Source: Variovorax paradoxus (GTDB taxonomy: Bacteria > Pseudomonadota > Gammaproteobacteria > Burkholderiales > Burkholderiaceae_C). From it: DNA of 64,000 bases. Location of the stretch: NCBI RefSeq assembly GCF_009755665.1, contig NZ_CP046622.1, positions 4,588,001 to 4,652,000 on the forward strand, read 5' to 3'. A model generated the notes under the pieces. The model had not been told where the DNA came from. It saw nothing but the letters and a program-made list of their open reading frames with translations, and did no database searches. Shown piece by piece: positions 49,173 through 64,000 of the stretch (its first letter is position 1; every line of letters begins with the position of its first letter). The translations under genes were made by a program, and so were the position numbers.

Positions 49173-49811
49173 TCAACCATCGCCTTCAGGCAAAAAGCTG
49201 AAATACGCGCGCGCAGGCTGCTTCTCGGGCAAGACGTAGACCACCCCACGCGCACTGCCGAACACCGGCTTCACATAGGTGTCGTAAAACGCCGTGGGCA
49301 CATTGATGCAGCCGTAGGAAATGCGGTGATCTTCCGCATTTGCCGACGCAAGCCGCTCCAGCCGCCGCTCTGATTTGTTGTTCGTTCGAACGCGATGCAT
49401 GGACACCGCCGCGCTGTAGTCCACCCAAACGATGTCTTCGCCTTGCAGGTTGATGCCAGGCTCCGAAAGAAAACGTCCGGCGGGTGTGGTGCGTTCATCA
49501 GGGCGTATGTCGGACAGCTTTCGCTCGCCGATGCCCGGCACCGATCCGTCTCCTTGCGCGAGCCCCAGCAGCACGGGCGATGCGCCTTGCAGGGTTCCCT
49601 CGGCACCAAAAACAAAGACGCGCGCGTTCATCTTGTCGACGATTGCGAAAGGAAGGCCTCGGTTGTCTTGCGTGCTGGTGGCTGCCTGCGCCAGCTGCCA
49701 CACATCAGCTGATGCTTCGGTGCTTGCGAAGGCCTCGACAGCACCTGCTGCCGCATGAATGAAAGTGGCCCCACATGCAATCGCAAAAGACAGGAGCAGG
49801 GAGTTCTTCAT
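49173..49811 (-). CDS. L,D-transpeptidase-like (YkuD) exported protein
   Basis: From the ATG at 49811 the product is 212 residues with a signal peptide (MKNSLLLSFAIACGATFIHA). A YkuD-like domain follows, with the catalytic cysteine in HRISYGCINVP near 170-180. The usual motif has HGC; here tyrosine replaces histidine (SYGC). Upstream SMHRV supplies the likely catalytic histidine. Such enzymes cross-link peptidoglycan or attach lipoproteins, but this variant's activity is unproven. Confidence 0.75.
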   Translation of the reverse strand: MKNSLLLSFAIACGATFIHAAAGAVEAFASTEASADVWQLAQAATSTQDNRGLPFAIVDKMNARVFVFGAEGTLQGASPVLLGLAQGDGSVPGIGERKLSDIRPDERTTPAGRFLSEPGINLQGEDIVWVDYSAAVSMHRVRTNNKSERRLERLASANAEDHRISYGCINVPTAFYDTYVKPVFGSARGVVYVLPEKQPARAYFSFLPEGDG

Positions 49812-49904
49812 GGGCAGCAGGAAAACATGGCACGAGAACCCGGCTCGAAGCGCGGCCGCCAAACAGCATTGGCGGCCGCGTTCAGGCGCCGGAGGCGCAG
49901 TCGA

Positions 49905-50455: not shown

Positions 50456-53400
50456 TTACGCGCTGCGCCAGCCACCCCCAAGCGCTTTGTAAAGGTTCAC
50501 CATGTTCACAGCCTGCTTGAGTTGCATCTCGATCAGCTGCTGTTGCTCCGAATAGAGCTCGCGCTGCGCGTCCTGGCTCGAAAAATAATCTTCCAGGCCG
50601 CCGCGGAATCGCGTGCGCGAAATGCTCGCCACCTTTTCGAGCGCCTGCACGCGGGCGTGCTGTGCCTCGAGTTGCGGGCGCATGTGGTCATCGGCAATCA
50701 GCGCATTGGCAGTCTCGCGGAACGCCACCTGCGCGGCGTACTCATACGATGCCATTGCAGCAGCCAGCCGCTCTTCGTTGCCGGTGATGTTCGCCGAGCG
50801 GCGGCCCCAATCGAAGATGGGCAGCGACACGCCCAGCACGCCGGCCCAGCTCCGATTGCCGCTGCTCAGCAGCGTCGACAAGTCTCCGCTGATGCCACCT
50901 GCCAATGCCGTGAGCGAAATGGTGGGCAGCATGGCGGCCTTTGCTGCCCCCACACCGGCATTGGCGGCCTCAACCCGTGAATAGGCCGCCAGAAGATCCG
51001 GGCGCCTTTGAAGCAGGCTGGACGGCAGGCCTGCCGCAACCGATGCCGTCGAGCTCTGAGGCCAGGGCCGTGCGCTGCCTGTGTCGGGCGGCACCGGTTG
51101 GCCGACCAGCACGTTCAGCCATTGCAGGTCTTGTGCAACGCGCATGCGGAATTCTTCTTGCCGCACCCGCGCGTTCTGCAGCAGCGACTGCGCGCGAAAC
51201 ACGTCGAGCTGCGCCGCACCGCCGGCCGCCTTGGCGCGGCCGATCATGTCGGCGTTGGAGGCCAGGCCGCTTTCGTTGGCATTTGCCAGCGCAAGCAATG
51301 CGCGGTCGGCGCGCAGCGTGAGATAGGCGTTCGACACCTCGCCCACCAGGTTCATGCGTGCCGCGGCAAAGTCCTTGTCGCCCGCCTCGGCCAACGCGCC
51401 GGCTTGCTGCGCCGTGCTCTGCTGGCGGCCGAAGAAGTCGAGCTCGTACGACGTGACGCCCGCCTGAATGTCGAAGCTGTTCGACACACGCCCGTCGGAC
51501 GGCACATTGCCGACCGGGCTGAGCGAGCCCTGCGGCGTGGTTTGCGCGCGCTGCGCATGGCCCGACAAACCGATTTGCGGGAACAGCGAGGCGCGGCTAC
51601 CCGCATACACGGCGCGCGCTTCGCGGGCCTTCGCGGCATAGGCGCGCAGGTCGCGGTTCTGGGTGAGCGCGGTGGCGATGAGCCCGCGCAGTTCTTCGTC
51701 TTGAACAAAGTTGCGCCATTCGACGGGCTCGGCATTGGGCGCCATGGTACCGGCGGGCCATTGCGACGGCAGCGCCAGGTCGGGCTGCTTCATGGGCGGC
51801 GTCAGGTTGCAGCCGCTCACCACCAGCACCACGCACACGGCCAGCAACATCAATATCAGCCGCAGGGACAAGCGCACGAAACCCGCTCCAGGCGCGCCGA
51901 AGCCCGCGCTCGCGAGCAAGGCCGAGGCCGCGCGCCATGGCCGCACCTGAACCGCGACGTGGCTCGGAGGCACGTTGAACACATGGCTCACCAGATGTTC
52001 GCGCTGCGCCTCGGTGCCGGCAAACCGCAGTTCGGCCCCAGCGGAGCTTTTGCCGGCAAGCTTCGCAGGCAACCAGCCGACCGGATCGATATACACCTCC
52101 AGCGGCTGCCCGATGTGCATGCGCTTGAGAGCGCGCGATTCGAGCAGTGCGCCGTCCGCGGCAATGTTGACGAAGCGCGAATCGCTTTCGCCCGCCGCTG
52201 TTCGCACGCGGGTGCGCGCGTGCCACGGAAAACGTTCTTCCTGGTCTGGCCGCGGCAGATCGATGCAGGCGATGAGCGCCGCCAGGCAAAGAATGAGCGC
52301 AATGCCGGTCCACACGAGGTTGAGCTCGTCGCCCGGCGTGAGCGCTTCACCGCTCAAGGCCACCGATGCGCCACCCAGCTGCAGCGCCACCAGCAGACCG
52401 CCGAAGACGGCCACCAGCTTCCAGTGCACCACGGTCTTGGAGCGGTCGAGCCCCTTGTTCGTTACCTTGAATGGGCGCCCGAATGGCCGCAGCATTGCGC
52501 TGGCGAGCGTGCCTGTTACCGCCATGGCGGCCACGAGCTGGCTCACCTCGCTGAACACCGGCAGGCAGCGCCGCTGGCTGATCCAATAGCTGTAGGCCCA
52601 GAACATCATGAGCGGCGGCAACCCGAACGAGGCAAAAGCTTGCGGCGTGGCGTGGAACACCGACACGCCCGCATACCAATAAAGCGCGGGCGCCAGCATG
52701 ATCATTGCCATGAAGGGCTTGCCCAGCCAATGCAGCAGCCCGTGCAAGAAGTGCAGCCGCGCCGAGAAGCTGTAGCCCTTGCCGCGCAGCGGGCCGTTGG
52801 GCAGCAGCGCGAGTTGCACGGTGCCAAGGCACCAGCGGCTGCGCTGGTTGATGTAGTCGATGATGCTCTCGGCCGACAAGCCGTTCGACAGGCGCTCGCC
52901 CAGCCAGCGCGTGACGTGGCCCTTGCGCAGCAGCAGGTAGGTAGTGTGGATGTCTTCGCACACGCTGCCCACCGGAAAGCCGCCCGCCGCGGTGATCAGG
53001 TCGCGCCGCACGATGAACGAGGTGCCTACGCAAAAAGCCGAGTCCGCCGCGTCCTTGGCGGGTTGCAGCACGTCGAAGAACACGCGCTGCTCGTCGACCC
53101 AGCTGTCGGTCGCGCGCAGGTTGTGCTGGATGGGGTCGGCGTTGTAATAGAACTGCGGCGTTTGCACCAGCCCGACCTTGCGGTCCGCGAAGAGGCCGAG
53201 CATGCGATAGATGATTTGCCGCTGCGGCGCAAAGTCGGCGTCGAGCACCAGGATGTACGGCGCGTTGGTTACGCCCGCAGAAATGCTCAGCCCGTTGTTC
53301 ATGTTGCCCGCCTTGGCGTGGCTGTTGTCGGGCCGGCGCGCGTAGTGCACGCCCTTGCGCTCGCAATAGTCGCGCAGCCAGTCGCGCCGGGTGTCATCGA

Positions 53401-53854
53401 GCACCCAGACGTTCACTCGCGGATAGTCGATGGCCTGCGCGGCGATGATGGTTTTTTCGAGCACCGCCAGTTCTTCGTTGTAGGTGCAGATGAACACGTC
53501 CACCGCCGGCACCTTGTCACCGCGGCGGCGCAACTCGGCCTCGCCCACGTCGGCCAGCGGCGTGTTGTCGCGCCGGCCCACCAGCATGTGAATGGACATC
53601 AGCGTGTAGACGATGGCCGTGAGCTCGAAGGCCAAAAAAACCCATGCAAACAGCGTTTCAAAGCCCAGGTCCGAAGGCGGCATGGTCGCCACCACGCGCC
53701 ACACGGCATAGCGCATCAGCAGCAGCGCGGTGAGGGCGCCAAACACCATGCGATGGCTGGTGCGATCGACCCGCGCCAATGACATGAGGAGAAGCGCGAG
53801 GCCCGCAACAAGGGCGTTGAGCTGGAACTCCGGCGTAGCGATCAGGTTGGACAT
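50456..53854 (-). CDS. Cellulose-synthase-like GT2/PilZ protein in frame with NodT/TolC-type outer-membrane channel
   Basis: One uninterrupted 1132-codon frame. Residues 1-530 are a BcsA-like processive glycosyltransferase: Asp119, DD153-154, DAD205-207, ED300-301 and QRSRW337-341, flanked by about eight membrane helices. Residues 540-630 are PilZ-like (Arg547/Arg551; NIAADG563-568, with Ala where Ser is usual). Residues 660-1132 form a complete outer-membrane efflux factor of the NodT lipoprotein class, with lipobox VVSGC ending at Cys682 and coiled-coil/barrel repeats. No stop separates them. GGAG lies eight bases before an in-frame GTG at 51877 that would start RLSLRLILMLLAVCVVLVVS, a full lipoprotein signal, so the channel may also be made alone by internal initiation. 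Confidence 0.85.
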   Translation of the reverse strand: MSNLIATPEFQLNALVAGLALLLMSLARVDRTSHRMVFGALTALLLMRYAVWRVVATMPPSDLGFETLFAWVFLAFELTAIVYTLMSIHMLVGRRDNTPLADVGEAELRRRGDKVPAVDVFICTYNEELAVLEKTIIAAQAIDYPRVNVWVLDDTRRDWLRDYCERKGVHYARRPDNSHAKAGNMNNGLSISAGVTNAPYILVLDADFAPQRQIIYRMLGLFADRKVGLVQTPQFYYNADPIQHNLRATDSWVDEQRVFFDVLQPAKDAADSAFCVGTSFIVRRDLITAAGGFPVGSVCEDIHTTYLLLRKGHVTRWLGERLSNGLSAESIIDYINQRSRWCLGTVQLALLPNGPLRGKGYSFSARLHFLHGLLHWLGKPFMAMIMLAPALYWYAGVSVFHATPQAFASFGLPPLMMFWAYSYWISQRRCLPVFSEVSQLVAAMAVTGTLASAMLRPFGRPFKVTNKGLDRSKTVVHWKLVAVFGGLLVALQLGGASVALSGEALTPGDELNLVWTGIALILCLAALIACIDLPRPDQEERFPWHARTRVRTAAGESDSRFVNIAADGALLESRALKRMHIGQPLEVYIDPVGWLPAKLAGKSSAGAELRFAGTEAQREHLVSHVFNVPPSHVAVQVRPWRAASALLASAGFGAPGAGFVRLSLRLILMLLAVCVVLVVSGCNLTPPMKQPDLALPSQWPAGTMAPNAEPVEWRNFVQDEELRGLIATALTQNRDLRAYAAKAREARAVYAGSRASLFPQIGLSGHAQRAQTTPQGSLSPVGNVPSDGRVSNSFDIQAGVTSYELDFFGRQQSTAQQAGALAEAGDKDFAAARMNLVGEVSNAYLTLRADRALLALANANESGLASNADMIGRAKAAGGAAQLDVFRAQSLLQNARVRQEEFRMRVAQDLQWLNVLVGQPVPPDTGSARPWPQSSTASVAAGLPSSLLQRRPDLLAAYSRVEAANAGVGAAKAAMLPTISLTALAGGISGDLSTLLSSGNRSWAGVLGVSLPIFDWGRRSANITGNEERLAAAMASYEYAAQVAFRETANALIADDHMRPQLEAQHARVQALEKVASISRTRFRGGLEDYFSSQDAQRELYSEQQQLIEMQLKQAVNMVNLYKALGGGWRSA

Positions 53855-55161
53855 GATGGGATAGCTCCTGCGGCAATGGTCTTGCCGGTGAAGGGGTTGA
53901 AGCCGGTTGCGGCAAGCGCAATCCAGGCGGTAGCGCCCAAGTGGGGCCAGCGGTAGTAGTAAAAGTCGGCGCCCGTCGAATCCGGCCCTATGGCCAGGCC
54001 GGTGGAAATGCGGGTGCTCGGGGTTGCGTAATACAGGCCGTTGTCGGCACGCTGCGATGCAAGCAGCTGCCACAGCGCCTCGGGCGCCGTGCCCTTGCGC
54101 GCCACCAGCGTTGCGGCGGCCTGCGCGCTGCCCTCGGTCCAGATGCCGTCGGGGTTGCGCGAGAAACCGTATCCTTCGGCGAAGCGATGGTTCTTTTCGA
54201 CCCAATCGAGCGCCCGGGTCCACACGCATGAACCTTCAGGCGCCGCCAGCACGGGCCACAGCTGTGCATCGAGGCCCGAGGCTTCGGTGGAGACGGTGGC
54301 ACCGTCTTCTTTTGTGCCGATATTGAAGCGCTGCTCCTGCGCATTCCACATGCGGTTGACGAACTCGAGCGCGGTGCGCGCTTGCTGGCGCTCGGCTTCA
54401 TTGGGCCCGCCCGCGCGCGCGGCCCAGGCTGCCGCCATGGCAATGTCGATGTTGTGCTCGGTGGACTTCCAGGTCTGCGCGCGCTGCGCGTTGTCCCAGC
54501 CGTACCAGCCGCCGTTGTAGCCGTCGGGCGCATTCTTGGCGCGCGTGCGCTGCTCGATCCAGCCCAGCAGCTTGCGCGCGCTGGCCAGGTAGGCCGGCGA
54601 CCGCTCCGCCTCCGACAGGTTCAGCAGCAGCAAGGCGGCCCACGCCACGTTGCCGGTGGCGGTGCTCACCTGGTAGGCATCGGCAATCCATTGCTTCTTG
54701 CCCGCATCCCAGCGGCCCGGCAGCGCGGCCTTGTCTTCGGTCATGGGACCTGCGCGATAGGCGTTGCGCACGCGGCCGTCGGGCATGCCTGGGTCGCGCT
54801 CCATTGCGCGCACCACGGCATCGCCAATGCGCTTGGCCGAAGCCGTGTCGCCGCAGGCCAGCAGCGCAATGCCGGCCAGTGCGTTGTCGTAAGTGAAGGC
54901 TGCGCCGGCCAGCGCGGGCTCCAGCGGCGGGCCCTGCTTGTTGTCCGCAAGCCGGTAGCTGGCCAGAAACAGCGGCCCCGAGGCCGCGCCCTTCTGGTCT
55001 TCAGCCACCGCGCGGCGCAGCCCCTCGCAGCTTTGGCGCGCGAGCTGTTGCTGCGTGGCACCAGGCTTTTGCGCATGGGCCGCGGGCATCAGCAACATCG
55101 ACACCATCGATGCGACGGCGCAATGCGCCAAGGTGCGCGGAATGGAGGAGAGAACCTGCAT
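53842..55161 (-). CDS. Exported six-hairpin glycosidase-like protein of the polysaccharide locus
   Basis: The 439-residue product has a signal peptide (MQVLSSIPRTLAHCAVASMV, cleavage near AHA, about 30) and an alpha-helical body with YDNALAGIALLACGD near 90-104, YNGGWYGWDNAQRAQTWKST near 225-244 and EHNIDIAMAAAWAA after it. That helical, aromatic pattern fits an (alpha/alpha)6 toroid hydrolase acting in the periplasm. In cellulose operons such a place is taken by the GH8 enzyme BcsZ; I do not see the GH8 signature clearly. Its stop overlaps the glycosyltransferase start by 13 bases. Confidence 0.7.
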   Translation of the reverse strand: MQVLSSIPRTLAHCAVASMVSMLLMPAAHAQKPGATQQQLARQSCEGLRRAVAEDQKGAASGPLFLASYRLADNKQGPPLEPALAGAAFTYDNALAGIALLACGDTASAKRIGDAVVRAMERDPGMPDGRVRNAYRAGPMTEDKAALPGRWDAGKKQWIADAYQVSTATGNVAWAALLLLNLSEAERSPAYLASARKLLGWIEQRTRAKNAPDGYNGGWYGWDNAQRAQTWKSTEHNIDIAMAAAWAARAGGPNEAERQQARTALEFVNRMWNAQEQRFNIGTKEDGATVSTEASGLDAQLWPVLAAPEGSCVWTRALDWVEKNHRFAEGYGFSRNPDGIWTEGSAQAAATLVARKGTAPEALWQLLASQRADNGLYYATPSTRISTGLAIGPDSTGADFYYYRWPHLGATAWIALAATGFNPFTGKTIAAGAIPSCPT

Positions 55162-55202: not shown

Positions 55203-56507
55203 TCAAGATCTTTGAAGGGTGGCCGTCACCACCTTGCCGGGCGCGCACATGTTGCTGCCCCCGTCGGCCGGAGCGGCTGGCGCCTCTTTGCTTTCGATGC
55301 GCGCCACGGCGTAGAGGGAGCCCTGCTCCGCATAGGGGAACGGCACGCTGTAGGTGCTTTGCAGCTCTTCTGAAGCCACGGGCAGCAATTGCTCGACCCG
55401 CGCCGGCATCGACTTGGAGTTTTCGCCGATCTTCACGTCCAGCATGGAGCCGATGCCCAGCCGCTTGGCCACGCGCGCCGGAAACACCGCCACCACGCCA
55501 AGCCGGCTGCAGTCGGTTACGCGCACGAGCGAGGCACCGGCCGTAACGTAAGCGCCCTCAGGCGCGAGCACCGAGTGAACCTGCCCCGCCTGCGTGGCCT
55601 TGATCTCGTAGGAAGACAACTTTTCGACCCGGCGACGCTCTTCGTCTTCGAGCTGAATGACTTGCTTGAGCTGCTGGAGAATGGCCGCGCCGTCTTGCTG
55701 GGCGCGGCCCACGCTGTTGCGCAGCGCCTCGCGGCGGCTTGCCAGCGTCTGGAAAAGGCTGTTGCCGCTGGTGCCCACAAAAGCGCCCTGCCCCGCGCTT
55801 GCCACCGTTTGGGCCTGGCCGGCAAACGCCTGCTCTGCCACCGCCGCAGTGGCGCGCGCCGTGTTCAGCTGCGCCACCGATGCGTTCATCACCTGCTCGC
55901 TGATGGCGCCTTCCGCCAGCAAGGCCTGGTTGGTCTTGACCTTGTTTTCTTGCTCTTCGACCATGCTGTGCGCCGCGTCGCGCTGCCGGCGCGCAACCTG
56001 CCAGGCCTCCCAGGCCTGGGCCACCGAGGCCTGGCGGTGAACGTTGGCCTCCTGGCCAACGGACCTCATCTCCTGGTTGTCGGCCTTGAACTGGTTGCCG
56101 AGCTGCGCCAACTGGCTTTGCAGCGCCAGGTGCTGCGAGCGAAGCGTGGTCAGGATCTCCTGGTTGACCGTCGGGTTGCGCACCGTGGCCACCACCGTGC
56201 CGGGCTCCACCATGTCACGCGAATGCACCACCATTTGCGTGACCACGCCGTTGATGGGCGATGTGATCAACCCCACCGGCGCCTGCAGTACCGCGCGGGT
56301 GGCCTGCGAAGACAACAGCGGCTGAACCAGCGTTGAGACCATCAGCCACAGCACAAAGGCCAGCAGCACATAGCCAGCCAGCTTGGGAACGAAGGCGCCA
56401 GATTGCCCGCCCCGGCAGCCGCCCCGCCAAACGCGGCGCGCCCTGCTGCTGCCGGTGCGGCGCTGGCCGCGAAAGAAAACGAATGAAGGCAGTTTCGACA
56501 CACGCAT
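55203..56507 (-). CDS. HlyD/MFP-type periplasmic adaptor
   Basis: The 434-residue protein has a basic N-terminus, one membrane anchor (about 42-62), a lipoyl-like half (LQAPVGLITSPINGVVTQMV), a long alpha-hairpin (about 110-290), the second lipoyl half (IKATQAGQVHSVLAPEGAYV) and a beta-barrel. Proteins of this design bridge an inner-membrane unit to a TolC-type channel. It is first in the same-strand series adaptor-glycosidase-synthase/channel. AGAGGTGAGG precedes the ATG. Confidence 0.9.
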   Translation of the reverse strand: MRVSKLPSFVFFRGQRRTGSSRARRVWRGGCRGGQSGAFVPKLAGYVLLAFVLWLMVSTLVQPLLSSQATRAVLQAPVGLITSPINGVVTQMVVHSRDMVEPGTVVATVRNPTVNQEILTTLRSQHLALQSQLAQLGNQFKADNQEMRSVGQEANVHRQASVAQAWEAWQVARRQRDAAHSMVEEQENKVKTNQALLAEGAISEQVMNASVAQLNTARATAAVAEQAFAGQAQTVASAGQGAFVGTSGNSLFQTLASRREALRNSVGRAQQDGAAILQQLKQVIQLEDEERRRVEKLSSYEIKATQAGQVHSVLAPEGAYVTAGASLVRVTDCSRLGVVAVFPARVAKRLGIGSMLDVKIGENSKSMPARVEQLLPVASEELQSTYSVPFPYAEQGSLYAVARIESKEAPAAPADGGSNMCAPGKVVTATLQRS

Positions 56508-57160: not shown

Positions 57161-57685
57161 TCAACACCAGCTCAGCGGCTGTGCCGTCAGCTTGTAATTG
57201 CGGCCGGAGAGCCGAAGCAACTTGAATTCGTTCTCGCGATCGAGGCTCAGACGCGTACGGATTTGCGACACGCACGTGGCAAGCGCGCGCGAGGGATCGG
57301 AGGCTCGGGAACTTCTCCAATACGAACTCAGCAGAAACTCCTGGGAGACGGCCTGCTCCAGGTTGCAGAAAAACGTAAAGGCGACGGCGAACTGCCGCGG
57401 GTGCAGGTGAAATCGCTGGCCTTTCACGAGAACAAGATTGCTGCCATTCAAAGCGAATTGATAGTCGCCCCAAGTCGCTGCCTGTATCAGACTGGGTCCG
57501 AACGTCCCTGCCGCAGAGGGCCCAGCGACGGAGCGATGCCCACAGATGTCCAGGAGACGCTGAAGCGTCTCGTTCTCGGTAGCACAAGCGTCCTGAATGG
57601 TGTTCTCCTTGGGGCCCACGTGCAAGCAGCAATGCGACGGTCTCTTCTCACGACCGATCGCCCCACAGGCTCGGCGGAAGGTCAC
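57161..57685 (-). CDS. Winged-helix (OmpR/PhoB-type) DNA-binding protein without receiver
   Basis: The 174-residue product has a C-terminal trans_reg_C-like domain of about 100 residues (YQFALNGSNLVLVKGQRFHL, then HPRQFAVAFTFFCNLEQAVS, and ATCVSQIRTRLSLDRENEFK ending with GRNYKLTA). No REC domain precedes it; the first 70 residues lack recognisable features. It ends the type I secretion gene series and may control it. The start at 57685 is the longest option and is uncertain. Confidence 0.7.
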   Translation of the reverse strand: MTFRRACGAIGREKRPSHCCLHVGPKENTIQDACATENETLQRLLDICGHRSVAGPSAAGTFGPSLIQAATWGDYQFALNGSNLVLVKGQRFHLHPRQFAVAFTFFCNLEQAVSQEFLLSSYWRSSRASDPSRALATCVSQIRTRLSLDRENEFKLLRLSGRNYKLTAQPLSWC

Positions 57686-58283: not shown

Positions 58284-59513
58284 TCAACGCTCTCGCAGCG
58301 CTTCCCGCGCGCGGTTCAGTGGTTTGGTCAGGTAGTCCCAGACGGTTTTCTGGCCGGTCCGGATGTCGGCCGTGGCGACCATCCCCGGCACGATGGGAAA
58401 TCGCTGCCCGTTCTTGCTGACCAGCGCGTCCGAATCGGTGCGCACCAGCACAGGGTAGTAAACGACTTCGGGCTTGACCTCATCGCGCAGGGTGTCGGGC
58501 GCGATGTTCACGACCTTGCCGTCCAGGCCGCCGTAGATTGAGTAGTCGTATGCGGTGATCTTCACCAGCGCGTTCTGGCCGGGATGAATGAAGGCGATGT
58601 CGCGTGGCGAGATGCGCACTTCCACCAGCAATTGGTCGTCGAGCGGTACCAGCGTCAACAACGAACCGTTGGGCGGCACCACACCACCGATCGTGGTGAC
58701 GTCCAGACTCTTGACGATGCCACGCACGGGCGACTGCAGTGTCAGTCGATCCAGCATGTCCGCCCGCCCCCGCACCACGGAAGACAGCGACTTGACTTCG
58801 GCGTCTGCCTTGGCGAGCTCCTCGCGACTGCGCACCATATAGCTGGAGCGCGCCTCGGCAATCTTGAGTTCGAGTTCGGCACCCTGGCGCTGCAAGCGGA
58901 TCAACTCGACATTGCTGGCGGCGCCGCTGGCAACCAGAGAGCGGGTGATCTCCAGCTCGCGGCGCACCAGCCCCAACGCTTGACTCAAGCCGCCCACGGT
59001 CTCGGCGAGGCCCGCACGCCGCGAACGGAACAGGGCCGCCTCCGAGGATGTCAGCTGCGGCCACTCCTTGAGCTCATCCGGAAAATTGATCTCGCTCTGC
59101 CCGTTGACTTCCGCGCGCAGGCGCGCACTGCTGGCGAGCGCCGCGCGGTATCGCGCCGCGGACTCTTCCACGTTCGACTCGCCGCGGGTTGGATCGAGCT
59201 GGGCCAGCACCTCGCCCTTCTCGACGATCTGACCTTCACGCACGCGCAGTTCGGTCAAGATCCCGCCTTCGAGGGACTGGATGCGCTGCTCGCGCGAACT
59301 GGGGATCACCTTGCCTGTACCGCTGGATACCTCGTCGATCTGGAAGTACCAGGCCCAGGCGAAGAACGCCGCCAGGAACACCGCTGTCAACCACACGATC
59401 CGACCGGACTTGCTGGCGCGAACTTCATCGTAGTCGTCCAGGTTCGCAACGCTCGCGGCCCGGCGCGCCGCATCTGCAGCCGGGTGAGGCCTGGTCTTCA
59501 GACCTGCGTTCAT
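58284..59513 (-). CDS. Type I secretion membrane fusion protein (HlyD/LapC-like)
   Basis: The 409-residue protein has a cytoplasmic N-terminus, one membrane helix near 45-63, a lipoyl domain (RIQSLEGGILTELRVREGQI), a long coiled-coil hairpin (about 110-260), the second lipoyl half (LQSPVRGIVKSLDVTTIGGV) and a C-terminal beta domain ending near LNRAREALRER. That matches type I secretion adaptors. Its ATG overlaps the ABC gene stop by four bases. Confidence 0.93.
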   Translation of the reverse strand: MNAGLKTRPHPAADAARRAASVANLDDYDEVRASKSGRIVWLTAVFLAAFFAWAWYFQIDEVSSGTGKVIPSSREQRIQSLEGGILTELRVREGQIVEKGEVLAQLDPTRGESNVEESAARYRAALASSARLRAEVNGQSEINFPDELKEWPQLTSSEAALFRSRRAGLAETVGGLSQALGLVRRELEITRSLVASGAASNVELIRLQRQGAELELKIAEARSSYMVRSREELAKADAEVKSLSSVVRGRADMLDRLTLQSPVRGIVKSLDVTTIGGVVPPNGSLLTLVPLDDQLLVEVRISPRDIAFIHPGQNALVKITAYDYSIYGGLDGKVVNIAPDTLRDEVKPEVVYYPVLVRTDSDALVSKNGQRFPIVPGMVATADIRTGQKTVWDYLTKPLNRAREALRER

Positions 59514-61798
59514 GATGCATCTCTCCCCGTGTGTTCGTCCTGCGTGCGCGCGGCCTGGCCCTGCGCTTGCATGCGATGGATGACCCGCGGCGACTCGGGC
59601 TTGGCACCCGTTTCCGAAGAACTCGCGGACGCACCTTTGCGCAGTTGAGCCAGCACGTCGTCGCGCCTGCCGTCTATCACGACGGTGCCACGGTCGACCA
59701 CGATGACCCGGTCGACTGCATCGAGCACGGCGGGGCGGTGGGTTGCCACGACCAGCGTTCGACCGGGCGCCATGGAACGCAGCGTTGCGATGACCTCGCG
59801 TTCTGACACTTCGTCCAGCGTGGCAGTCGGCTCGTCGAGCAGCAGCACGCGCGGCTCTCGCAGCATCAGGCGTGCGAGAAGCAGACTCTGCCGCTGACCG
59901 CCGGATAGGCCGAGGCCGCCCTCTTGCACTGGATGGTCCATGCCCGTCGCGAGCTGACACACGAAGGACCATGCGCCCACGGCGCGCAATGCATCGATCA
60001 GCTGGGCGTCGGTGGCATGCGGTGCGCCCAGCGTGAGATTTTCCCGCAGCGTGCCGTGAAAGAGCCGGGCATTCTGCGTCAGGAGGGCCACGTCCCGCCG
60101 CACGTCGGCAGGATCGATATGAGACAGGGCCACGCGATCCAGCAGCACCATGCCGGCTGTGGGCTCGAGCAACCCCGACAGCGCCTGCAGCAGCGTGGAC
60201 TTGCCTGCGCCGTTGCGTCCGAGTATGGCGATGCGCTCGCCCGCACGGATATTCAGCGTCTTTACGCTGAGCACTGGCGTTCGGCCATCATGCGTGAACG
60301 CGGCCTCCCGGAGCTCGTAGTCGCCTTGCAGAGAGGGGCGATGGATGCGCGTGCTGTCGGGCGCGTGGTCGACCGGCAATTGCATCAATTGGTCCAGACC
60401 CTGGCTCGCCACGCGGGCCTGCTGCCACCTATTGAGCACCTGGGTCACGCCCGCCAGCGGTGCGAGCATGCGGCTCACCAGGATCGACGCGGCCACCAGC
60501 ACACCCGTGCTCATCTCGCCGGCAATCACCATCGGGGCTCCGAAGAAGATCACGACGGCGAAGGCGCCCCCCTGGACCGTTTGCAGCCAATTGTTCAGAC
60601 CGTTGAGCAGTGCGCGCAGCTTCAGGCCGGATTCGGCGTTGACGGCGTTGTAGTGATTCCATTGATTCTGGAACCGGGGTTCCGCCTGGAGCACCTTGAT
60701 GTCCTCGATGCCCTGCACCGCCTCGACCAGCATGGCACTGCGCAGCGACGACTCGCGCATGCTGGCCTGTGCGAGCTCCCGCAGTCGGCGCTGAGCCAGC
60801 AGGCTGGGAAGCAGCAGCAGCACGAACGCCGCCAGCGGCACCAGAACCAGCGGGCCGGCGATGAACCAGAACACCACGCTGAACAGCAGGAAGAACGGCA
60901 GATCCGCCGCCGCCGTCACGGTCGTGGAGGTGAGCATTTCGCGCACCGGTTCCAGCTCCCTGATCTGCGAGATGAAGGTGCCGGTCGCGCGAGGGCGCGC
61001 CGTGTTCCGCACGCGCAATGCGTGCCCGAAGACGCGGTCCGAGATCCGCAGGTCGGCGCGCTTTCCAAGCGCATCGGTGATGTGCATGCGCGCACCGCGC
61101 ATCATCGATGCGAAGAGCAGCGACAGCAGGACGCCACCGAACAATACCCAGAGCGTCGGCGTGGACTGGGCCGGCACCACGCGGTCATAGACCTGCATGG
61201 AGAACAGCACACCACCCAGGGCCATCAGGTTCGTGATGAACGACGCGATCAGAATGTGCGCGAAGGGCCGCAGGTCGGCGAGCACGATGCGGCGCAGCCA
61301 ATGGCGTTCGACAGGCTTGATATAGCCGTCCACACGCGAATCGGGTGCCGACTGCAAGGGGCGAAGCACGGCCATCGCCTGCACATGGGGCTGAAGTTCC
61401 TCGACGGTGCGCGTACTTTCCGCCCCCTGATCTCCGCAGAAGGCCAGACGCAGCCCCTCGGCCGTGATGGCCGTGACCACGGCCACCTGATCGCCGTCGA
61501 GCTGAACGACCACAGGGAGGCGCCAGGGACTGAGTGCATCGAGGCGAGGCGCCATGTGGCGCAGTGCGAGCCCGGCCTGCTGCGCCATCCGGCGCACGCT
61601 CTCTTCCAGCGTCAGGCTGCTGTCCCAGTCCGCCGCGACGCGGATGCGTTCGCGCGACGCATCGAGCTGGTAGTGAGCGGCCACGGTCAGCACCGCGTCC
61701 ATCCATCCCTGCGCGAGGCCGGAGAGTCCGCGCGCGGCCGCCGCCGGGGAAGACTCCACTGCCTCGTTGTTCCAGCTGGGCGAGACGATGGCACTCAT
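59510..61798 (-). CDS. Type I secretion ABC transporter (LapB-like, with degenerate C39 domain)
   Basis: The 762-residue protein has an N-terminal C39-like domain (about 25-155) without the catalytic cysteine, a six-helix ABC membrane domain (about 175-430) and a nucleotide-binding domain with GRNGAGKST near 534-542, LSGGQRQS near 641-648 and VLLLDEPTATLD near 661-672. In RTX and adhesin systems this inactive C39 domain holds the unfolded substrate. It overlaps both neighbours by four bases. Confidence 0.94.
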   Translation of the reverse strand: MSAIVSPSWNNEAVESSPAAAARGLSGLAQGWMDAVLTVAAHYQLDASRERIRVAADWDSSLTLEESVRRMAQQAGLALRHMAPRLDALSPWRLPVVVQLDGDQVAVVTAITAEGLRLAFCGDQGAESTRTVEELQPHVQAMAVLRPLQSAPDSRVDGYIKPVERHWLRRIVLADLRPFAHILIASFITNLMALGGVLFSMQVYDRVVPAQSTPTLWVLFGGVLLSLLFASMMRGARMHITDALGKRADLRISDRVFGHALRVRNTARPRATGTFISQIRELEPVREMLTSTTVTAAADLPFFLLFSVVFWFIAGPLVLVPLAAFVLLLLPSLLAQRRLRELAQASMRESSLRSAMLVEAVQGIEDIKVLQAEPRFQNQWNHYNAVNAESGLKLRALLNGLNNWLQTVQGGAFAVVIFFGAPMVIAGEMSTGVLVAASILVSRMLAPLAGVTQVLNRWQQARVASQGLDQLMQLPVDHAPDSTRIHRPSLQGDYELREAAFTHDGRTPVLSVKTLNIRAGERIAILGRNGAGKSTLLQALSGLLEPTAGMVLLDRVALSHIDPADVRRDVALLTQNARLFHGTLRENLTLGAPHATDAQLIDALRAVGAWSFVCQLATGMDHPVQEGGLGLSGGQRQSLLLARLMLREPRVLLLDEPTATLDEVSEREVIATLRSMAPGRTLVVATHRPAVLDAVDRVIVVDRGTVVIDGRRDDVLAQLRKGASASSSETGAKPESPRVIHRMQAQGQAARTQDEHTGRDAS

Positions 61799-63195
61799 CG
61801 CACGCCCCCCGCCACGCTGGCGCTCAGATCGTCGATGCCGAACGTCGTGCGCAACCGGCCAGTCTGATAGAGGCATTGCACCGAGAGGCGCTGCAGCTCG
61901 TGCGCGCTTTCGACCTGCTCGAAGCGCACGGCGTGGTACTCCTGCTCGGCGTTGAGCAAGTCAAGGAGCGAGCGCGTTCCCAGCTGCAGGTACTGTTGCT
62001 TGTACAGATCCCGCGTGGAGCGGATGCTGTCGGCCCGGGCGGCCAGCACGGGCAACCGCTGAACCTGGCCCTGCGATTGAGCCAGCGCATCCTCCAGCGA
62101 CTGACGTGCTGCCAGCTCTGCCTGGGCCCGCGCTGCGTCTGCCGCACTCAGCGCGTACGCAGCAGCGCGCTTGCGCGCCTGATTGCCGCCGCCCTCGTAC
62201 AGCGGCGCCGAGAAGTTCAATCCCACGCTGGTGTTCAAGCCGTTTTCGCCCGGCAGGCGAGAGCGAGCATCCAGGCCTCGGCCCACCGAACCGTCCAGCG
62301 ACAGCGTGGGCAGGAGCTGCGCCTCGGCCGCGCGAAGGTCCGCCTTGGCGATCTCGCGCTGAGCGTCGGCAAGCTGCACAGCGGGTGGATTGATCTGTTG
62401 CGTGTCGGTGCCCGCGCGGCAAGCCCCGTCGAGCGCGGCCGGAGTCGCATCGGCGATGTCGACCGGCGAGCGAGAGCCCGTGAGATGCATCAGATTCACG
62501 CGCCAGCGGGCGAGTTGCGCGTCCGCCGTCAGCTGTTGGGCACGGGCCGCCTCCACACGAGATTGGGCCTGGACCACATCCGAGCGCGAACTCGCGCCCA
62601 TCCGGCCGCGTTCCAGCACCAGATCGGTCAATGCCTGAACACCCTGGATTTGTTCGCGTGCGATCTGAGCCAGTTCCTTCTGCCGGTGGATCTCGATCCA
62701 CGAGAAGGCCGTCTCGCGCGCGACCTCATCCGCGGACAACAGGGACTGCGCCTTGGTGGCGGCCACCGAAGCCTCCGCCTGTTCCACCGCGCTTGCGACT
62801 TTCCCGAAGTCGTAGAGCATTTGAGACACGGACAGTTCGACCGTATGCAGCCGGCGGCTCTCGTAGGAGCCGATGTTCCGGTTGCTCAGCTGCGAGTTGA
62901 TGCCGCCGCGCACTTGGGGGTAGTACCCCGCACGCGCGGTTTCGATGCCTTCGGCCGCCTGCAGGATCTGCTGCGCGGTCGTCCGCACACTGGGATGCCA
63001 TTCGACCGCTGCCCGCATCGCCTGGGGCAGACTCAATCGAATGGATTGCACTGCGCCGGCTGGCACCTGCGGATGTCCGGGTGAGGCTGGCGGGACCTGC
63101 GCCTGTACCACGCCCGATAGCGCCAGCAGGCAGGCTCCGACCGCCGCGGAAGCAGTCGCACGCTTGCGCCGAGCGCCTATGAGAAAAGGAAGCAT
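61795..63195 (-). CDS. TolC-family outer-membrane channel of type I secretion
   Basis: The 466-residue product has a signal peptide (cleavage near VVQAQV, about 33) and two TolC-like repeats (about 55-250 and 265-440), with motifs such as LSVSQMLYDFGKVASAVEQA and LNFSAPLYEGGGNQARKRAA. There is no lipobox, unlike the NodT-type channel at 50.5-51.9 kb. It leads the operon channel-ABC-adaptor. Confidence 0.92.
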   Translation of the reverse strand: MLPFLIGARRKRATASAAVGACLLALSGVVQAQVPPASPGHPQVPAGAVQSIRLSLPQAMRAAVEWHPSVRTTAQQILQAAEGIETARAGYYPQVRGGINSQLSNRNIGSYESRRLHTVELSVSQMLYDFGKVASAVEQAEASVAATKAQSLLSADEVARETAFSWIEIHRQKELAQIAREQIQGVQALTDLVLERGRMGASSRSDVVQAQSRVEAARAQQLTADAQLARWRVNLMHLTGSRSPVDIADATPAALDGACRAGTDTQQINPPAVQLADAQREIAKADLRAAEAQLLPTLSLDGSVGRGLDARSRLPGENGLNTSVGLNFSAPLYEGGGNQARKRAAAYALSAADAARAQAELAARQSLEDALAQSQGQVQRLPVLAARADSIRSTRDLYKQQYLQLGTRSLLDLLNAEQEYHAVRFEQVESAHELQRLSVQCLYQTGRLRTTFGIDDLSASVAGGVR

Positions 63196-63378: not shown

Positions 63379-64000
63379 CTAGGCGTACATCGCCGAAGCG
63401 TGGTGCAGCTCGTCGTCAAGCGCAGTCGCCACCGGCGGAACGAAGGTCGGCGAATCTGCGCTGAACGACCCTTCGCCGGTCACCGTGTGTACGCCCATCG
63501 CCGTCTGCGCTGGAAGGAAGGCGGCGTTGAGCAGACCATCGAAGGACGACGCGGAACTGTCTTCCGAGCTCAGCAGATCCGCCTTCCACGCGGCGTAGTT
63601 CCTTTCGCCCGCGTCGTCCTGCGCTTCGAGACCATCCACAGCCTGCAGCCCCAGTGCGTCGGCGCCCATGAAACTGAAAGCGGTCGGTGGCGCAGCATTG
63701 CCGAATGTGACGTTCAGCGTCTGGGTCGCTACGTTGCTCACATCGCCGTCGCGGTCCGTGACCTGATAGGTGATGGTCTCCGTGTAGTTGGCCGGCAGTG
63801 CCTGGTAGTTGAATTCGCCCGTCTCGAGTTCCACGAGCAGCGTCCCGCCTGCCGCTGTGGTCACGGTCAGCGTTTTCGCGATCGCATCGAAGGCGTAGTC
63901 AGGGGGGCTTCCATCCGGCGTCACGATCAGCTGGCCGGTGGCGGTGTCGTAGGCATAGACATCGCCGTCGATGCTCAACGTCGAGACATAGCCGCCATCT
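63379..64000 (-). CDS. C-terminal end of a large cadherin/VCBS-type repeat adhesin (cut by window edge)
   Basis: The frame is open to the window edge and ends at 63379, giving about 206 residues. It contains an Ig/cadherin-like repeat (VYAYDTATGQLIVTPDGSPP, then YTETITYQVTDRDGDVSNVA and TQTLNVTFGN), typical of VCBS or BapA-type adhesins. The final 100 residues are acidic and low in lysine, as expected of a type I secretion signal region. Position right before the channel-ABC-adaptor operon marks it as the substrate. Classic RTX nonapeptides are not in the visible part. Confidence 0.8.
   Translation of the reverse strand, partial: DGGYVSTLSIDGDVYAYDTATGQLIVTPDGSPPDYAFDAIAKTLTVTTAAGGTLLVELETGEFNYQALPANYTETITYQVTDRDGDVSNVATQTLNVTFGNAAPPTAFSFMGADALGLQAVDGLEAQDDAGERNYAAWKADLLSSEDSSASSFDGLLNAAFLPAQTAMGVHTVTGEGSFSADSPTFVPPVATALDDELHHASAMYA

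Follow-up and report, generated by a model that had tools for sequence, protein, structure and literature searches.

A cellulose-synthase-like glycosyltransferase and a lipoprotein-type outer-membrane channel in one conserved reading frame of Variovorax

The analyzed stretch of DNA, herein referred to as the window, comprises 64,000 nucleotides of Variovorax paradoxus (assembly GCF_009755665.1, contig NZ_CP046622.1, positions 4,588,001 to 4,652,000). On its minus strand, at window positions 50456-53854, lies a gene that joins a GT2-PilZ synthase to a NodT/OprM-type outer-membrane channel. A preliminary description, made from the letters alone, had reported one uninterrupted frame of 1,132 codons from a BcsA-like start to the end of the channel. 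Translation and domain profiles confirmed this frame, which yields 1,132 residues and a single terminal stop. The longest open reading frame in the same frame is 1,257 amino acids and begins upstream of the ATG at 53854. Nevertheless, this ATG was taken as the start, because it is preceded by AGGAG ten bases upstream and because the nearest database relatives (P0002-P0009, 97-98% identical) are likewise 1,132 amino acids long. The gene and its parts are the following:

50456..53854, minus strand: fused gene for a GT2-PilZ synthase and a NodT/OprM-type outer-membrane channel, 1,132 codons (translation and domain profiles)
51890..53854, minus strand: synthase half, residues 1-655 (motif alignment and BcsA structure matches)
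51977..52243, minus strand: PilZ domain, residues 538-626, with a degenerate signature (NIAADG, no Ser; Pfam and alignment)
51890..51976, minus strand: residues 627-655, the counterpart of the native C-terminus in unfused Rhodanobacteraceae synthases (comparison and substitution rates)
51809..51889, minus strand: predicted internal lipoprotein signal peptide, residues 656-682, with an Arg-bearing n-region, a hydrophobic core, and the lipobox VSGC (Cys682 at 51809-51811)
51875..51877, minus strand: in-frame GTG, codon 660, with GGAG eight bases upstream; a possible, non-conserved internal start
50459..51811, minus strand: mature channel half, residues 682-1132, aligning from residue 1 of mature OprM

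The fusion is a conserved feature of the genus. In all 101 Variovorax genomes, with seven candidates scored per genome, the locus was found in about a third (35 genomes, pieces included), and the whole frame is uninterrupted in 31. One of these, G351, carries two copies, L055 and another match, which share 87% and 69% identity with the gene in the window. Four further genomes have a piece or a damaged copy: the gene stops at a contig edge in G304, is frameshifted near residues 1082-1101 in G364, is broken near residue 800 in G372, and is reduced to residues 882-1132 with other DNA upstream in G285 (L011). The breaks in the last three genomes all fall in the channel half. The junction between the halves was found in 34 genomes, this one included, and is open in all of them; the stop or frameshift at residues 630-660 that, according to the preliminary description, would speak against a fusion was sought in these relatives and is absent. 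Apart from these 34 genomes and G285, no match better than E 5e-82 was found among the seven candidates per genome. All 18 loci in the named Variovorax genomes are fused, and the recurrence for which the preliminary description had suggested a search extends to relatives with only 66% identity among the fused proteins. Outside the genus, the E-value-sorted rows for samples of 299 genomes of the family and 369 of the class showed no other full-length match.

The 48 fused Variovorax loci were reduced to 32 distinct proteins, including L041, which is frameshifted close to its end, and L061, which is truncated by a contig end. In these 32 sequences, the linker from the SAG motif to the lipobox Cys varies from 32 to 51 residues, always in frame. 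Residues 627-655 are under purifying selection, with a ratio of nonsynonymous to synonymous substitution rates (dN/dS, calculated as a simple pairwise average) of 0.11 in one clade (25 sequences) and 0.21 in the other (7 sequences). Chance could explain an open junction in a single genome (P about 0.65 for 38 codons of this base composition), but it is ruled out by the recurrence in 34 of 34 genomes, the in-frame linkers, and the selection on residues 627-655.

As far as its sequence tells, the first half belongs to the GT2 glycosyltransferases and is a relative of cellulose synthase. The Pfam domain Glycos_transf_2 covers residues 120-287, and BcsA structures match residues 14-521 of the fused protein. 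Residues D119, D153/D154, D205xD207, E300-D301, Q337xxR340W341, and FKVTxKG (462-468) are invariant in the 34 aligned rows; they correspond to the catalytic motifs D, DxD, TED-like, and QxxRW and to the gating loop. The cut-off of the curated CelA model TIGR03030 was not reached (351.7 bits vs. 699.1), and no match to PF03170, the BcsB partner, was found in this genome. The PilZ domain at residues 538-626 scores 25.2 bits over the whole protein (cut-off 22.5), with no single stretch passing alone. Two motifs, [D/N]xSxxG and RxxxR, are signatures of PilZ domains that bind cyclic di-GMP. The Ser of the former is absent in all 21 fused rows, and DxSxxG is kept in all 13 unfused ones. At residues 535-541 there is no conserved RxxxR (the spacing is R-5-R), and a literal RxxxR at 547-551 is not conserved across the rows. 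In this alignment, fusion and apparent loss of the cyclic di-GMP signature coincide.

The second half is, by sequence, a normal member of the OprM/NodT outer-membrane factors, lipobox included. The Pfam domain OEP matches it in two stretches (139 bits), and the NodT model TIGR01845 matches residues 675-1128 with 296.7 bits (curated cut-off 210.05). It differs from these factors in the 681-residue N-terminal synthase extension and in a shorter arm after the lipobox Cys. The intact lipoprotein signal claimed earlier is present: VSGC lies at residues 679-682, and the lipobox Cys is found in all 32 distinct fused Variovorax genes, in two Pseudomonas fusions described below, and in all 42 database rows where it could be viewed. 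Cys682 aligns with Cys1 of mature OprM, its lipidation being a prediction. The signal core evolves fast (dN/dS 0.49 and 0.85 in the two clades). In all 32 sequences the n-region has a net charge of +1 to +3, and the hydropathy of the core is 2.4-3.2. The core thus appears to vary in sequence and yet to retain its hydropathy and positive flank, as in signal peptides. Measured between the Cys and the first conserved Trp, the arm has 31 residues in 32 of 32 Variovorax fusions and 35-57 in 58 unfused channels (L132, without an aligned Cys, was excluded from the spacer counts); it is also shorter than the arm of OprM. A structural model of the whole fused protein has a mean predicted local distance difference test score (pLDDT) of 66.3 and a predicted template modeling score of 0.55, with the linker and much of the channel half below a pLDDT of 50. 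Thirteen of the 34 alignment rows behind this model lack the channel, and it was used solely to note a predicted helix at residues 660-679.

Two further genes of the operon lie upstream of the fused gene:

53842..55161, minus strand: protein of 439 amino acids with a predicted (alpha/alpha) barrel, herein referred to as GHx; overlaps the fused gene by 13 bases
55203..56507, minus strand: HlyD-family periplasmic adaptor, 434 amino acids (domain profiles and locus comparison)

GHx has no Pfam or NCBIfam match at E 0.001, and its only two sequence matches to solved structures (E 0.85 and 0.92) are meaningless. Its predicted fold resembles glycosidases and cellobiose epimerases. Foldseek returned (alpha/alpha) barrel enzymes including BcsZ and an endoglucanase, while VIA-align placed a dextran dextrinase, a polysaccharide hydrolase, and an epimerase on top, with terpene cyclases listed as well. 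Since the matched barrel enzymes include hydrolases, an epimerase, and terpene cyclases, the fold does not settle the activity.

Relatives of these genes were located by six peptide patterns, and the best 80 of 145 loci encoding a relative were compared. Of these loci, 11 belong to Rhodanobacteraceae, 30 to Pseudomonas or one other gammaproteobacterium, 21 to Burkholderiaceae or an unplaced Burkholderiales bin, and 18 to Variovorax. In 78 of the 80, the genes follow one another as HlyD, GHx, GT2-PilZ, channel; the other two are cut by contig ends. The ancestral state is four adjacent genes, for the HlyD adaptor, the barrel-fold hydrolase-like protein, the GT2-PilZ synthase, and the channel. 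In the unfused loci, where measured, the Cys codon of the channel lies at most 335 bases from the synthase stop (L133, with a broken synthase frame, set apart). The channel already shares the frame of the synthase in Frateuria and many Pseudomonas, with a stop between. In Variovorax, the end of the synthase half matches the native end of the unfused Rhodanobacteraceae protein, and the signal peptide of the channel follows almost directly.

In a tree of 85 sequences, rooted by midpoint only, the sequence from the window falls inside the Variovorax clade. The tree requires three changes to the fused state, each of them forced by branches with good support. One is placed at the base of the Variovorax sampled, and the other two sit on tips inside Pseudomonas. 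In the two Pseudomonas loci, L092 (8000-8180) and L099 (7800-8020), the same two genes are fused at different junctions and the lipobox is kept. No close fused relatives of these two were found among the best 120 matches of two protein searches; the fused proteins among those matches had all been recovered in the database search with the window's protein. The synthases of Variovorax cluster with the Rhodanobacteraceae ones rather than with those of Cupriavidus or Burkholderia. Horizontal transfer and loss are suggested by this grouping and by the occurrence of the locus in roughly one third of the genus.

The locus is best explained as a synthase-dependent polysaccharide export operon, in which the outer-membrane pore is probably the exporter of the cellulose-like sugar chain that the synthase would make. 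Three readings of the fused gene were compared: cleavage of one product at its internal signal, a full-length tether between the membranes, and internal initiation of the channel. Cleavage fits best. On balance we favor a single product of translation, with signal peptidase II (LspA) cutting at the internal lipoprotein signal so that the synthase stays in the inner membrane and the lipidated channel goes to the outer membrane. This reading rests on the lipobox with its short arm, the lack of a conserved start, and the in-frame linker, and it agrees with the predictions that separate the three. A single chain predicts that the frame is kept through the linker, as borne out by the in-frame lengths and the selection on residues 627-655. 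Separate initiation predicts that a start codon is kept, and 14 of the 32 Variovorax fusions have no ATG 15-45 codons before the Cys. A spanning tether predicts a long arm and a dispensable lipobox. Of the preliminary interpretation, the real and conserved fusion with its intact lipoprotein signal stands, whereas the uncut tether is disfavored and the internal start proved non-conserved.

The proposed sequence of events begins in Variovorax with the merging of the last two genes of the operon by loss of the stop/start region between synthase and channel. The product would be made as a single chain, as its conservation implies. The synthase half would be embedded in the inner membrane, its PilZ domain on the cytoplasmic side, and the signal peptide of the channel, now internal, would insert with its Arg-bearing end inside. 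By established lipoprotein biology, Lgt would then lipidate Cys682, LspA would cleave in front of this residue, and the channel would travel to the outer membrane by the Lol pathway. There, as in efflux pumps, the channel trimer would meet the HlyD adaptor above the synthase. The outcome would be two proteins in two membranes, in a ratio of one to one, from one reading frame. That such an LspA-matured polyprotein, with an internally acting signal, arose on three independent occasions, two of them in single genomes of Pseudomonas, is an evenly balanced proposition.

Several points weigh against cleavage. LspA normally acts on N-terminal signals, and cutting behind a 681-residue multi-pass protein would be unusual. 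Some start codon of the three kinds is present 15-45 codons before the Cys in all 32 fused genes, as it is in 95% of background windows. A start with a Shine-Dalgarno-like motif is found there in 10 of the 32 fused genes, compared with 13% of 1,600 background windows; in the window analyzed here, this start is the GTG with GGAG. The lack of such a motif is weak evidence against initiation, and the motif a weak discriminator, since only 21 of the 58 unfused channels carry one. In the Pseudomonas fusions, an ATG lies closer to the Cys than the counted range, at 13 codons in L099 and 8 codons in L092. Both Pseudomonas fusions have an arm of 36 residues, equal to that of most unfused relatives; being singletons, they could be recent damage or mutations and carry little weight alone.

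Of the alternatives, the strongest is a dual-product gene, in which the lipoprotein channel would be translated by itself from the GTG at 51877 or from a different in-frame start, whether or not the fused product is also made. This GTG, at codon 660 and with GGAG eight bases upstream, is present as the preliminary description claimed. Its proposed role as a channel-only start fares unevenly among relatives. At the position of residue 660, 21 of the 32 distinct sequences have a start codon (14 GTG and 7 ATG), although the alignment is loose here in the seven second-clade sequences. In the other 11 the codon is GCG (4), CCG (3), GTA, CTG, ACG, or GCC (one each), the GTA belonging to the close relative L039, and GGAG stands alongside in only 8 of the 32. 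GTG is also the commonest Val codon of these genes (2,916 of 4,394 over 48 loci). An in-frame ATG lies 15-45 codons before the Cys in all 58 unfused channels; among the fusions, this holds for 18 of 32 in Variovorax and 0 of 2 in Pseudomonas. Because related sequences are not independent, these start-codon counts overstate both sides. Even with the enrichment of Shine-Dalgarno-like starts given above, the dual-product gene is rather unlikely as the general explanation; additional internal initiation is possible in some members, this one included.

Considerably less probable is the tether, in which the uncut protein would span the envelope with the channel joined to the inner-membrane synthase. 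The single open frame in the members examined would suit it, as would the general tendency of fusions to join partners that act together. Against it stand the 31-residue arm, which is below those of unfused channels and OprM, and the lipobox Cys, which is kept in 32 of 32 genes though a tether does not need it. In addition, OprM measures about 140 Å in length and is anchored in the outer membrane by its lipidated N-terminus (PMC8277102).

A neutral or degenerating read-through, with the channel half disused and another channel of the genome serving the synthase, is very improbable. This genome has 28 OEP domain matches in all, hence many other channels, and the disruptions in G364, G372, and G285 all hit the channel half. 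However, the dN/dS of this half (0.13 and 0.19) is near that of the catalytic half (0.13 and 0.13), and the frame is intact throughout in 31 genomes of the genus. An assembly or sequencing artefact masking a stop or frameshift near residue 640 is refuted by the recurrence in 34 of 34 genomes with the junction and in 18 of 18 named Variovorax loci.

The preliminary description also held that synthases and their outer-membrane ports are separate proteins. This is correct for the present pair in the literature searched, but cellulose systems do have other fusions. AcsB is the periplasmic partner of the inner-membrane synthase. AcsAB is a single polypeptide, proteolytically processed into two (PMC4877109), and the fusions BcsAB and BcsZC are known as well (PMC7112194). 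The AcsAB/BcsAB proteins of Gluconacetobacter/Komagataeibacter thus resemble the present case in joining a cellulose-synthase subunit to the next export partner; here, in contrast, the synthase is joined to an outer-membrane channel that carries a lipoprotein signal, and the genome has no match to BcsB. BcsZC of Zymomonas is likewise a fusion from a cellulose operon that involves an outer-membrane pore, but it joins a periplasmic hydrolase to the pore, with no inner-membrane synthase in the chain as described (PMC7112194). The mixed-linkage glucan synthase BgsA-BgsB of rhizobia also pairs a GT2 synthase with an HlyD-like protein, thought to form the exit channel; there, a putative bicistronic operon encodes separate proteins, and no outer-membrane channel gene is described in it (PMC9495663).

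The closest functional parallel appears to be the cyanobacterial XcsA-XcsB-TolC model (Maeda 2018, as described in PMC12430437), where a GT2-PilZ synthase, an HlyD adaptor, an endoglucanase, and a TolC-type channel are proposed to form a tripartite exporter. The cyanobacterial operons are described as lacking BcsB; the genes for synthase, HlyD, and endoglucanase adjoin in some species, with the TolC gene elsewhere (PMC12430437). According to the same review, the model is without experimental validation, and its coherence is doubted because the three proteins are not encoded in one operon (PMC12430437). Here the synthase, the HlyD adaptor, the hydrolase-like protein (GHx, a putative hydrolase), and the channel are encoded together in 78 of 80 loci, all four genes adjoin, and two are fused, the likeness being one of kinds of parts as the review describes them. 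By analogy, this operon supports the XcsAB-TolC model: beta- and gammaproteobacteria have a conserved operon made up of parts of these kinds, and the merging of synthase and channel is a classic genomic sign of a shared pathway. The system seems to work like XcsAB-TolC and to be built like AcsAB, its membership in either not being established.

The cytochrome b/c1 precursor FbcH of Bradyrhizobium is a polyprotein cut at an internal signal peptide, for which our literature search found no paper. It differs from the present protein in that signal peptidase I is involved and both products stay at the inner membrane, whereas here the signal is of the lipoprotein type and two membranes would be served. 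The Variovorax fusion offers a natural way to test if one translation product can reach two membranes by means of an internal lipoprotein signal. A fusion of a synthase to an outer-membrane channel was not found described in the literature searched, which left most subscription journals outside its coverage. It is already present in annotation, since database records carry the fused proteins under names that include 'cellulose synthase (UDP-forming)' and 'efflux transporter outer membrane subunit'; as far as the searched literature goes, it is undescribed.

Other genes were found around the operon. Upstream of it, at 57161-57685 (minus strand), a small protein with a Trans_reg_C winged-helix domain is encoded, a possible regulator. 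Beside the operon, at 58284-63195 and 63379-64000 (minus strand), lies a type I secretion set with domain matches to an HlyD-type adaptor and an ABC transporter. It includes a TolC-like protein at 61795-63195 (minus strand) with two OEP matches, and the frame at 63379-64000 is the end of one leaving the window that resembles, by look only, a large repetitive adhesin. Downstream of the operon, at 49173-49862 (minus strand), is a gene for a protein of 229 amino acids, with no Pfam match and L,D-transpeptidase-like by look only.

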